A stretch of DNA of 64,000 bases, from positions 1-64,000 of the forward strand of contig NZ_JTFC01000007.1 in the NCBI RefSeq assembly GCF_003991225.1, read 5' to 3'. The notes below the pieces were generated by a model that saw only the letters and a program-made list of their open reading frames with translations, did not search any database and was not told where the DNA came from. The stretch is from Candidatus Kurthia intestinigallinarum (GTDB lineage: Bacteria; Bacillota; Bacilli; Bacillales_A; Planococcaceae). The position numbers were made by a program, and so were the translations under genes. Positions 59,754 through 62,378 of this stretch are shown here, piece after piece (position 1 is the stretch's first letter; every line of letters begins with the position of its first letter).

Positions 59754-59783
59754 AAGAGCTAGCTTCAAGCTAGTTCTTTTTTT
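59754..59783 (+). terminator. ytoP terminator
   Basis: The stem AAGAGCTAGC / GCTAGTTCTT is followed by T. Confidence 0.8.
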
Positions 59784-59816: not shown

Positions 59817-60731
59817 ATGAATATTCCAGCAGTGATTCAACATCAAAAAATCATTTATCCAGCATTTCATTTACCACTAAAACGGGGACTTATCGGCATT
59901 CATGCGAATGTTGCCTGCAAAAAAAGCTTGTTGCAGCAATTAGCCAATAGAGAAGGCTATATTTTCACAGCGAATCAGGGAGACTATGAGCGCCTAACGG
60001 TTCGTGAGACAGTACGGTTTTTATGCCAATTGAGCACGACGAAGCAACAGGACAAAGAATGGCTAAAGCGTTATCAACTAGAAGAAATAAAACGCATGAA
60101 GGTAGGCTCACTATCAGAAAGTGAACGAGCCTTTTTAAAGTTGCTACGCATAGGCTTTGCCGAACAGCAATTAATTGTTGTAGAAGAACCTTTTTTAGAA
60201 TTAATGGATGCAGAACGACAAAAAGGACTTCAATTGTTTGAGGATTTACAACATAAAAACATAGTGATTTTATCGGCTAATTTAGAGGATTTATTGTCTT
60301 GTGACGAAATTTATCGTTTAGATGAGACAGGATTACATAGTATGGATATTTCGGATGACGCGGATGAGGTAGTTGAAGAAAATTCAAAGCCACTTGTTGT
60401 CGAGAAAATTAAGACGAAGAAAAATGATAAAGTTATTTTATTTAATCCACCTGAAATTGATTTTATTGAGAGTATTGAAGGTGTTGTACATGTCCATGTG
60501 GCGGGTGAGAGCTACATATGCCAAATGACGCTGACAGAAATGGAAGCAAAATTGCAGACCTATGGCTTTTATCGTTGTCATCGCTCGTATATTGTCAACT
60601 TGCAGAAAATACGTGAGATTATTACGTGGACAAAAAATAGCTATAGCTTACGCTTATCAACAGGGAAAGAAGCTGTTGTGCCATTATCAAGAGCAAAGCT
60701 GCAAGAGTTAAAAGAATTGCTACATATTTAA
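59817..60731 (+). CDS. LytTR DNA-binding regulator with degenerate ABC-ATPase domain
   Basis: A 304-aa protein in two parts. Residues about 1-175 follow the outline of an ABC ATPase: ERLTVRETVRFLCQL (59-73), a signature-like VGSLSESERAFLKLLR and a Walker B-like QLIVVEEPF. The key residues are changed: the P-loop reads NVACKKSLL (glycines lost, K35 kept), LSGGQ is LSESE (99-103), the Walker B Asp is E123, and the H-loop His is N155. Residues about 206-304 are a LytTR domain with FYRCHRSYIVNLQKI. No kinase or receiver domain is present. It probably regulates the adjacent ABC transporter, with the pseudo-ATPase contacting the transporter or another signal. AAAGGAG precedes ATG. Confidence 0.85.
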   Translation: MNIPAVIQHQKIIYPAFHLPLKRGLIGIHANVACKKSLLQQLANREGYIFTANQGDYERLTVRETVRFLCQLSTTKQQDKEWLKRYQLEEIKRMKVGSLSESERAFLKLLRIGFAEQQLIVVEEPFLELMDAERQKGLQLFEDLQHKNIVILSANLEDLLSCDEIYRLDETGLHSMDISDDADEVVEENSKPLVVEKIKTKKNDKVILFNPPEIDFIESIEGVVHVHVAGESYICQMTLTEMEAKLQTYGFYRCHRSYIVNLQKIREIITWTKNSYSLRLSTGKEAVVPLSRAKLQELKELLHI

Positions 60732-60764
60732 TTTCCCGGGAAACTTTTTTACGGAAAAATAAGT

Positions 60765-60794
60765 ACCATTCAGCCGGTATTTGCTACTGTTAAG
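60765..60794 (+). promoter_or_regulatory. LytTR-type direct repeat upstream of the ABC ATPase gene
   Basis: ACCATTCAG (60765-60773) and ACTGTTAAG (60786-60794) are 9-mers 21 bp apart (12-bp spacer), two helical turns. This is the layout and sequence type of LytTR-family sites such as those of AgrA (ACAGTTAAG) and ComE. Confidence 0.6.
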
Positions 60795-60864
60795 CAAAAA
60801 ACAGCAGTCAGATGGGCTTTTGTTGCGTATTGTTGAGGTACAAACGATACAAGGAGTGAGCGAC

Positions 60865-61713
60865 ATGCTAGCAGTCGATGTACAGCATATTCAAAAGCAT
60901 TTTAAGCAGCAAACCGCATTAAATGATGTAACCTTCTCGATTAAAGAACGTGAAATTTTTGGTTTTCTTGGTCCAAGTGGCGCAGGAAAAACGACGTTAA
61001 TTAAATTATTAACGGGACAACTTAGTCCAGATGCAGGGACTGGGGCGTTACTAGGACATTCGTTAAAAGATATGACGAAGCCTGCGATGCGTCAAGAAAT
61101 CGGTGTGCTATCAGATAATAGTGGTCTATATGAACGGTTGACGATTCAAGAAAATTTAGTGTTATACCGGGATTTATATAATTTGCCGAAGGAAGCGGTG
61201 GACGAGGCACTTGCTTTTGTTAATTTATCAGAGCATCGAAAAAAACGTGTCACGCACTTATCAAAAGGGATGCGTCAGCGTGTAACATTGGCCCGCACCA
61301 TTATGCATAAGCCAAAAATTCTTTTTTTAGATGAGCCGACTTCAGCATTAGATCCAGCGAATACGGCACATATTTATCGTGGATTACGTGCGTTAAATGA
61401 GCAGGGCACGACCATTTTCTTAACGACACATGATATGGCTGAAGCCGAAAATTTATGTGACCGTGTAGCCTTTTTACATGATGGTATGATTCAAGCGATT
61501 GGTACCGTAGAGGAACTAAAGGCACAGTACCGCGAGGAATTGATGATTGTTGAGTTAGAAGGTGGCGCTTCACATGAGTTAGCTTTAAATGGTGAAGAAA
61601 CAGCTACAAAGGTAAGTGAGTGGATGCGTCAGGGAATGATTCAGCGTATTTTAACGAAGGAACCGACGCTAGGTGATATTTTTATGAAAGTAACGGGGAG
61701 TGATTTAATATGA
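60865..61713 (+). CDS. ABC transporter ATP-binding protein
   Basis: A 282-aa intact nucleotide-binding subunit. Walker A is GPSGAGKTT, Q-loop region LYERLTIQENLVLYRDLY, signature LSKGMRQRVTLA, Walker B ILFLDEPTSALDP and H-loop TTHDM. The C-terminal extension (about 225-282) is typical of drug/bacteriocin exporters paired with ABC-2 permeases. ATG at 60865 follows AAGGAGTGAG; a frame from 60781 runs across the LytTR repeat. It ends 4 nt inside the permease start (ATGA). The substrate is unknown. Confidence 0.92.
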   Translation: MLAVDVQHIQKHFKQQTALNDVTFSIKEREIFGFLGPSGAGKTTLIKLLTGQLSPDAGTGALLGHSLKDMTKPAMRQEIGVLSDNSGLYERLTIQENLVLYRDLYNLPKEAVDEALAFVNLSEHRKKRVTHLSKGMRQRVTLARTIMHKPKILFLDEPTSALDPANTAHIYRGLRALNEQGTTIFLTTHDMAEAENLCDRVAFLHDGMIQAIGTVEELKAQYREELMIVELEGGASHELALNGEETATKVSEWMRQGMIQRILTKEPTLGDIFMKVTGSDLI

Positions 61714-62378
61714 ATCTATCGATAAGACGAATACAGGCTATTTTTATGAAGGATTATAAAGAGTTTACACGTAATTATGCGATTTCGATTATGTTATTGG
61801 CACCGATTATTTTTGCCGCCATGTTTGAAAAAGAATTGATTATTGTCGTATTAAACTTAACATTTGGTATGTTGACAGCGTTTGTTCAGGCAACGTTAAT
61901 TGCGGAGGAAAAAGAGCGCAATACCTTGCGTTCACTGACCTTAACTCCGGCATCGCCACTAGATATTTTAATTGGTAAAAGCAGTTTAGTATTTGTGATG
62001 ACGGCATTTATTATTGCAGTAGTTGCCTTTGTGATGGATTTTGTACCGGATGCACCGATGACAATAGCCCTTATTTTGATGACGATTTTATTTATTGCGC
62101 TTGGTACAATTTGTGGTCTGTATGCGAAATCAGTAATGGAAGCAACATTGACAGTATTACCTGTACTATTTATTTTCTCATTAGGTAGTATGCTAAGCAG
62201 CTTTGCTGACCGTTTTCCATTTTTAAAAGTAGCGGATTATTTACCGAGTGCACAGCTACTACTACTTGATTTAGGTGAAAAAGGTGCGCCAGCTGTTATT
62301 ATGAACATTTCGATTTGGACGATTATTGCCTGTATCGCCGCGTATCTATTGTATGTGAAACGCCTGAAAGATGAATAA
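61710..62378 (+). CDS. ABC-2 type transporter permease
   Basis: A 222-aa membrane subunit with six predicted helices (about 22-38, 44-62, 90-108, 118-138, 143-165 and 195-215). LIAEEKERNTLRSLTLTPASP between helices 2 and 3 is the conserved ABC-2 coupling segment (EKERGTLE.L..tP). It is short for the class, so it probably works as a dimer. It is translationally coupled to the ATPase gene. Similar small permeases export peptides or drugs; no substrate gene, immunity gene or precursor peptide is visible nearby. Confidence 0.88.
   Translation: MNLSIRRIQAIFMKDYKEFTRNYAISIMLLAPIIFAAMFEKELIIVVLNLTFGMLTAFVQATLIAEEKERNTLRSLTLTPASPLDILIGKSSLVFVMTAFIIAVVAFVMDFVPDAPMTIALILMTILFIALGTICGLYAKSVMEATLTVLPVLFIFSLGSMLSSFADRFPFLKVADYLPSAQLLLLDLGEKGAPAVIMNISIWTIIACIAAYLLYVKRLKDE

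Follow-up and report, generated by a model that had tools for sequence, protein, structure and literature searches.

The regulator encoded at positions 59817..60731 of the window, i.e. the whole stretch of 64,000 nucleotides that was analysed, consists of an ABC-ATPase fold joined to a LytTR domain, and it belongs to a real, seemingly undescribed regulator family (REG), the logic of which is akin to that of the LytTR Regulatory Systems (LRS) and of transporter-coupled sensing. REG is linked to an ABC-2 permease in a near-obligate manner, sometimes without the usual motor of the transporter, suggesting that the transporter itself acts as sensor. The best explanation, to which we give an even chance, is that REG is a one-component activator that uses the permease as its input. 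The open-access literature searched contains no recognisable study of an ABC-LytTR regulator and does not name PIRSF036612 / IPR012046, which we take to be an ABC-LytTR class.

The locus comprises three genes on the forward strand: REG (304 aa; ORF list, Pfam, profile match and predicted fold), an intact DrrA-like ABC ATPase with an LSKGM signature (60865..61713; Pfam and motif comparison), and an ABC-2-type permease of 222 aa (61710..62378), which was assigned by family alignment as its ABC-2 Pfam matches are all below the cut-offs. The ATPase gene has an ATG start at 60865, the mechanical ORF beginning at TTG 60781. The gene order and coordinates given in the initial annotation are borne out by the ORF list, as is its statement that kinase and receiver are missing, since inspection of the ORFs at 55-64 kb by eye showed neither; Pfam finds no receiver domain in REG either. 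A terminator-like hairpin matching the consensus (59754..59778, forward strand) follows the upstream M42-peptidase gene, so that REG probably begins its own transcription unit; the underlying scan yielded 3 hairpins vs 2.4 expected in shuffled sequences and is weak by itself.

The two halves of REG can be recognized separately. The LytTR DNA-binding domain (residues 204-302, 60426..60722, forward strand) matches PF04397 with 97.2 bits (cut-off 22.6), and in this part the AlphaFold model (pLDDT 91.9) superimposes on LytTR structure 3d6w with an rmsd of 1.8 and a TM score of 0.87. The pseudo-nucleotide-binding domain (residues 1-180, 59817..60356, forward strand), modelled confidently over residues 1-170, reaches 20.5 bits on its own, i.e. 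it stays under the Pfam cut-off of 25. Its ABC nature emerges from profiles and fold: in profile-profile comparison REG matches the neighbouring ATPase with a probability of 99.6 (E 5e-25, 137 columns) when the window serves as reference and 99.9 (E 4e-35, 209 columns) with locus L090 as reference. Moreover, the A2 profile matched 444 distinct PDB sequences (E <= 0.001), the best being ABCA3 (2.8e-20), and the 60 matches listed are all ABC proteins except one LytTR entry; the model also aligns with LptB (6mbn; rmsd 3.5, TM 0.59 by target). Both the fusion proposed in the initial annotation and the ABC-likeness of the N-terminal domain, which it had set out as refutable, are thus upheld. In a tree with the ATPases and only 8 outgroups REG forms a single clade (bootstrap 100), and neither the ATPases nor the outgroups are monophyletic, so that descent of the N-domain from a copy of the adjacent ATPase is no more than a possibility. 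Conservation of the EIITWTKN stretch is biased, as the loci were found partly through this very stretch.

The ABC fold of REG is kept and its ATP site is lost. Each of 51 REG representatives retains 0-3 of ten nucleotide-handling residues, and the neighbouring ATPases retain 10/10 in 50 of 50 cases. REG thereby lacks the intact Walker A, signature, Walker B Asp and H-loop of a functional ABC ATPase. In the window P-loop, LSGGQ and H-loop His are gone and the Walker B Asp is replaced by Glu, just as had been claimed, while the catalytic-Glu position is retained. The degenerate Walker A region reads GIHANVACKKS (59895..59927, forward strand; motif alignment); with positions that depend on the alignment, the three glycines are found in 0, 1 and 0 of the 51 representatives and the lysine in 5, glycines and lysine never occurring together. 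One block following the Q-loop, Y-E-R-L-T in the window (59985..59999, forward strand), is mostly kept according to residue counts, its Y, R and L being present in 42, 45 and 45 of 51 representatives, respectively. Y-x-R-L is also found in 8/8 REGs compared from loci that have only REG and permease, as well as in L216. In ABC proteins this block belongs to the permease-facing surface, although its retention may perhaps just reflect fold stability.

The linkage holds in both directions. Among 398 genomes of the class, 63 contain REG places of at least 140 bits, and all 65 of these places have a permease gene downstream; conversely, 63 of 64 permease matches of at least 200 bits are accompanied by REG. 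The 161 loci collected divide into 154 with all three genes, six with REG and permease and one that is truncated where its contig ends; because eight sequences are represented by two entries each, three genes are present in 146 of 153 distinct loci. The co-occurrence of REG homologues with the ABC pair, on which the initial annotation depended, is hence confirmed. The family extends to Clostridia (record L225, read by eye) and to plasmids. The linkage alone would also be expected if REG did no more than control the permease.

The gap between REG and the ATPase gene contains a conserved operator-like arrangement. Pattern scan and matrix identify a distal putative LytTR half-site, AGTACCATTCAGC (60762..60774), and 21 bp further on a proximal one, GCTACTGTTAAGC (60783..60795), both on the forward strand. 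At a 99% threshold such tandem half-sites occur in this gap in 45 of 50 representatives, in 0/150 coding windows and in 1/50 representatives upstream of REG. A pair of short direct repeats, spaced by about two turns of the helix, is what the target promoter of a LytTR regulator is expected to contain. The same matrix and threshold gave 4, 6, 32, 16, 11, 6 and 11 of 50 for spacings of 18, 19, 20, 22, 23, 24 and 30, and matrices retrained on ten shuffled sets placed 7-20 of 50 above score 10 vs 45 observed. A -10-like box, TATTGT (60828..60833, forward strand), starts 43 bp on from T 60785 of the proximal half-site; it was picked out by a spacing count, TAnnnT being present 42-44 bp on from the proximal half-site in 29/45 loci and in 1-5 at seven control offsets, and is not among the sites of a general promoter scan. 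Given the location of the half-sites between the two genes, REG probably activates the ATPase-permease pair, and, with the operator 3' of its own gene, it seemingly does not control itself in three-gene loci. A strict half-site pattern, used to find further regulon sites in the same genome, matched the window only, and the reversed control also gave one match. Directly 3' of the REG stop codon lies a palindrome, TTTCCCGGGAAA (60732..60743), which is conserved in place in 18/50 representatives (0 in ten shuffled sets); its pattern matched the window site and one other, inside a photolyase-like reading frame.

Ten loci consist of REG and permease with the usual ATPase gene missing, and in 8/10 the same operator, detected with a matrix trained on three-gene loci only, lies 3' of the permease gene and 5' of a different gene; it was not found at L204 and L205. 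The gene behind the operator varies (a PF06695 protein, a YfzA-like protein or another ABC ATPase), and L214 and L215 carry sites also upstream of the regulator's own operon. As the permease gene precedes the operator beside REG and the gene after it is variable, the permease seems to belong to the sensor and is favoured as the input of REG. These loci represent few lineages, nine of them being from seven genomes of one family and three being close relatives. Three of the ten (L214, L215, L197) have, at a greater distance downstream, a gene for a different type of ABC ATPase, which might work with the permease; for the remaining loci the sequence mostly covers about 1.5 kb after REG. Additionally, five different internal deletions in the ATPase gene leave the region of the operator untouched and the permease sequence largely so; the sparing of REG at these loci is biased, as they were found through REG. 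Permease dN/dS at ATPase-lesion loci is 0.26-0.69 (n=6) and thus exceeds the median of 0.22 at intact loci (range 0.11-1.01, n=30), so that these copies may be decaying.

Based on these findings we propose that the dead ABC domain of REG has kept the surface that holds the permease while having become unable to run an ATP cycle, so that REG may dock on the permease or compete with the true ATPase for it. The dead domain would then report the state or the free amount of the permease to the fused LytTR domain, and released or rearranged REG would bind the 21-bp tandem half-sites at 60762-60795, raising ATPase-permease transcription from a promoter whose -10-like box starts at 60828. The substrate of the transporter may be an antimicrobial peptide or another membrane-active compound. 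Of the proposal in the initial annotation that the regulator senses the transporter, pairing with the permease is favoured by linkage, the kept Y-x-R-L and the two-gene loci, whereas the true ATPase as essential partner has lost ground.

Pseudo-ATPase and true ATPase might instead form a mixed dimer that senses the ATP or hydrolysis state of the true ATPase, the permease being a mere third operon member. ABC domains naturally dimerise, homology between the REG N-domain and the ATPase is clear, all three genes are present at 154 of 161 loci, and three two-gene loci do have another ABC ATPase gene downstream. However, the ten loci without the usual ATPase gene, eight of them with operator, lower the case for such a dimer as the essential contact, REG is spared in the five ATPase-gene deletions (at loci found via REG), and the dimer-forming signature and Walker faces are precisely those that have degenerated, making this arrangement quite improbable. 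Somewhat better placed, though still unlikely, is that the pseudo-ATPase responds to a cytoplasmic signal (nucleotide, peptide or substrate) as a domain for ligand binding or dimerisation, with the permease as linked target gene only: most one-component regulators bind a ligand, and substitutes at the catalytic positions are common (Walker B D to E in 31/51, E at the catalytic-Glu position in 45/51), but the position of the permease gene before the operator in two-gene loci speaks against it. That REG is a plain constitutive LytTR activator carrying a decaying relic of an ATPase as its other half would agree with the N-domain being less conserved than the LytTR domain; yet the single REG clade, a median dN/dS of 0.178 for the whole gene (30 of 58 intact named loci) and the confident model of residues 1-170 render it highly implausible.

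An activator that reads a transporter has a precedent in MalK-MalT, where the ABC ATPase subunit contacts the transcription activator and reports transport; MalK, however, is a working ATPase separate from the activator, whereas REG is a dead one fused to a DNA-binding domain. Like REG, the LRS HdrRM and BrsRM are described as combining a LytTR regulator without kinase with a linked membrane protein, and some LRS operons contain ABC transporter genes (PMC6193735). Their direct repeats are reported 11-12 bp apart and 4-11 bp upstream of the -35 region (PMC6193735), a distance that would amount to about 9-11 bp in the window with a -35 box placed 17 bp 5' of the -10-like box. REG differs from the LRS as described there in its pseudo-ABC domain, in having an ABC-2 permease as membrane partner and in an operator located 3' of its gene (1/50 upstream), autoregulatory repeats being absent in the window; the LRS order of regulator and membrane protein recurs in two-gene loci, whereas the ATPase gene intervenes in the window. 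In the LRS the regulator is inhibited by its membrane protein. In BceRS-BceAB flux-sensing modules the ABC transporter is described as the sensor for a resistance response (PMC7828314), but these rely on a cognate kinase and response regulator; here neither was seen, the proposed link being the fused pseudo-ATPase. CoxC and RcoM, one-component LytTR regulators controlling carbon monoxide metabolism, share with REG an N-terminal input domain and a C-terminal LytTR domain; CoxC represses and senses CO through its MHYT domain, and both use three direct repeats, at intervals of 18-21 bp for CoxC, while the part of that account cited here describes no ABC domain for either (PMC11347149).

Tentatively, as an idea that we regard as rather more apt to fail than to hold, REG may represent a kinase-free sensory class in which ABC-2 permeases are read by a motor-turned-receiver, i.e. 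a pseudo-ATPase fused to LytTR, and in which the permease of two-gene loci, its motor lost, has become a membrane receptor switching on a separate export or stress gene. If REG does read the permease, the route from transporter to promoter would be very short, with one protein fitting both the motor socket and DNA, and transporter-based sensing as in Bce modules would extend to kinase-free systems. It would also provide a reason why selection keeps dead ABC domains, and two genes plus a reporter would allow a direct test of which state of an ABC permease is signalled.

In the window, the pseudo-ABC-ATPase-LytTR regulator gene, REG (59817-60731, + strand), is the first of three genes; on the same strand, an ABC ATPase gene (60865-61713) comes next, and the last gene (61710-62378) encodes an ABC-2 permease. 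The initial annotation had described REG as an ABC-ATPase-shaped domain fused to LytTR, and this architecture is confirmed by profile alignments, PDB matches and the predicted structure. Pfam recognizes a clear LytTR domain at the C-terminal end, and residues 1-180 reach an ABC score of 20.5 bits, slightly below the cut-off of 25. Aligned with the neighboring ATPase, the REG family profile covers 137 columns when the window REG is the reference (E 5e-25) and 209 when the longer REG of locus L090 is (E 4e-35). It matches 444 distinct PDB sequences (E <= 0.001), and of the 60 matches listed, one is a LytTR entry and the rest are ABC proteins. The AlphaFold2 model, built from 61 sequences, reaches a mean pLDDT of 91.9, dropping to low confidence at the hinge 181-192, and Foldseek relates it to ABC subunits, e.g. 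LptB (6mbn; rmsd 3.5, TM 0.59 by target), and to the LytTR domain 3d6w (rmsd 1.8, TM 0.87).

Degeneration of the ATP site is a family-wide trait of REG, which forms one clade (bootstrap 100). Ten nucleotide-handling positions were scored in 51 representatives (155 loci clustered at 70% identity to 50, with L129 added): REG keeps none of them in 5 sequences, one in 13, two in 29 and three in 4, whereas all ten are kept in 50/50 neighboring ATPases. The Walker A glycines, at alignment-dependent positions, are kept in 0, 1 and 0 of 51 REGs and the lysine in 5/51, never together; the Walker B Asp position holds Glu in 31/51 and Asp in 1/51, the H-loop His is present in 1/51, and the catalytic-Glu position still holds Glu in 45/51. 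The block after the Q-loop, which in ABC transporters faces the coupling helix of the permease, is mostly retained (Tyr 42/51, Arg 45/51, Leu 45/51), with the same residues as in true ATPases.

REG and the permease are tightly linked. The first set of loci, from a pattern-based scan of named genomes, comprised 69, mostly from Paenibacillus, but also from Kurthia, Lysinibacillus, Metasolibacillus, Jeotgalibacillus and others. When 398 genomes of the class were searched with a REG profile, 133 had matches (E <= 1e-20), many of which are LytTR-only. A score of >= 140 bits is reached at 65 places in 63 genomes, and 65/65 are followed on the same strand, at most 3 kb downstream, by a permease gene. 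In the reverse direction, REG is present at 63/64 permease matches of >= 200 bits, the exception being a broken second copy. Below that score, the comparison covered all but the 14 weakest permease places, and 15 of the places it covered lack REG. Seven REG-less places were inspected: L166, L167, L168 and L171 are other ATPase-permease pairs, L169 and L170 are permease remnants beside an intact triple, and in L165 transposase-like reading frames separate the pair from a weak REG-like frame. The copies in L169 (9782-10492; genome G239) and L170 (10239-10751; G016), each ~6 kb from the intact triple, are decayed duplicates with no REG or ATPase matches alongside. Among 118 genomes of the Paenibacillus-like family, REG occurs in 28 and the permease in the same 28 (E <= 1e-40; 30 places each); the sole REG lacking a permease match at this threshold adjoins a diverged permease, and the sole permease lacking REG has it as a split remnant. 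Co-occurrence of REG homologues with the ABC pair, for which the initial annotation had proposed a neighborhood survey, thus holds: 154 of 161 loci contain all three genes, a few with lesions, six contain REG and permease only (in L046 following a rearrangement) and one is cut by a contig end; as eight pairs are identical sequences fetched twice, the distinct three-gene loci number 146/153.

Priestia plasmids and one Clostridia record carry the family as well, and in the window's own genus its distribution is patchy (2/8 genomes listed). There, REG is identical in sequence between locus L103 (G454) and L024 (Candidatus Kurthia equi), and the region after REG in L102, from another genus, is nearly identical to theirs; as G454 has 8% contamination, this sharing may reflect contamination or recent transfer. 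In G459, a separate 289-aa pseudo-ABC ORF without P-loop (L142 4873-5739, - strand) lies upstream of REG; it may have arisen as a tandem copy of REG and been truncated, or may be a free pseudo-ATPase.

The region after REG contains an operator-like element. With a half-site matrix trained on this region and a 99% threshold set from shuffles, two 13-bp half-sites 21 bp apart are found in 45/50 representatives, as compared to 7-20 of 50 for matrices retrained on ten shuffled sets and 4-32 of 50 for other spacings (maximum at 20 bp). At threshold 9 the tandem site occurs in 1/50 regions upstream of REG and 0/150 windows within REG, and a prior-free self-comparison likewise peaks at lag 21. A TAnnnT box starts 42-44 bp past the proximal half-site in 29/45 loci versus 1-5 at seven control offsets. 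In the window, matrix matches place the putative distal and proximal LytTR half-sites at 60762-60774 and 60783-60795, with a -10-like box, TATTGT, at 60828-60833; its matching -35 position is poor, and this promoter is absent from the sites of the general promoter scan. A palindrome, TTTCC(NN)GGAAA, lies at 60732-60743, directly after the REG stop codon and upstream of the half-sites; it recurs directly after or within ~20 nt of the stop in 18/50 representatives (none in ten shuffled sets). As it has no loop, protein binding is a likelier role for it than termination. The half-sites would lie just upstream of the -35 position, which is where a report on LytTR Regulatory Systems (LRS; HdrRM, BrsRM) places the repeats of activators (PMC6193735), whereas overlapping repeats accompany repression by the CO sensor CoxC (PMC11347149). 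From this likeness we infer that REG would activate its target operon.

In some loci REG and the permease occur without the usual ATPase gene. L129 contains no ATPase within its 7 kb; compared to L197, from another family of bacteria, its REG is 44% and its permease 29% identical. In L129's family, 14 of the 29 genomes searched gave matches. Ten two-gene loci were counted: L197 and nine loci spread over seven of the 14 genomes; for most of them the sequence covers only ~1.5 kb past REG. The count leaves out the broken L220 and also L213 (G575), where the permease gene comes second and an ATPase-like gene third, the reverse of the usual order. REG is followed by the permease after ~8-20 nt (overlapping by longest frame in L214) and then by another gene; further downstream, L214, L215 and L197 encode an ABC ATPase of a different type. 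Eight two-gene REGs form a clade (support 0.992, tree without L201 and L216), all 8/8 retaining Y-x-R-L, as does L216. Scanned with the matrix trained solely on three-gene loci (spacings 20-22), 8/10 have a tandem site in the interval that separates the permease gene from its downstream neighbor (L200, L201, L202, L203, L214, L215, L216, L197; window fraction <= 0.048, shuffle fraction <= 0.030), the independent count being below 8 as L200-L202 are close relatives; none was found there in L204 and L205. In L214 and L215 a further site precedes REG (shuffle fraction 0.005 for each). The gene after the operator encodes a PF06695 'small multi-drug export' protein in the three loci tested, L200 (3393-3887), L203 (3280-3783) and L216 (2664-3215), which are candidate targets, a YfzA-like protein in L197 (in L205 one lies further on) and another ABC ATPase in L214. 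With the operator after the permease gene and the next gene varying, the permease appears to be a fixed component of the regulatory unit, the presumed target being what changes.

Loss of the ATPase in three-gene loci carries little weight as evidence that REG reads the permease. Five of the 69 named loci (L019, L030, L063, L068, L031) have different internal ATPase-gene deletions that spare the operator region and most permease sequence, the permease frame of L063 being broken, and L010 has ATPase frame damage; G551, very probably L030, was counted once. As these loci were found via REG, loss of REG would escape notice. REG dN/dS in the six (0.11-0.28) is like that of intact loci (median 0.178, 30 loci); permease dN/dS (0.26-0.69) is above the intact median of 0.221 and within the intact range of 0.11-1.01, and some of these loci may be decaying.

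The matches of the ATPase are to drug and lantibiotic exporters, at scores below family cut-offs. On the Priestia megaterium plasmid pPmT-2 (L224 785-1189 and 3851-6705), the triple lies ~2.7 kb from two mersacidin-family lantibiotic genes, a hint at peptide export or immunity. From both, it is reasonable to guess that the substrate is a membrane-active compound.

We found no recognisable study of an ABC-LytTR regulator among the open-access papers searched. Since protein databases presumably list an ABC-LytTR class, the architecture is probably already catalogued; the mechanism, the linkage rule, the operator and the two-gene subfamily appear undescribed in the open-access literature searched. 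Taken together, the reading best supported is that of REG as a kinase-free LytTR activator whose pseudo-ATPase would dock on the permease and read it, with REG itself predicted to bind DNA and to activate, which would place the system between LRS and transporter-coupled sensing.
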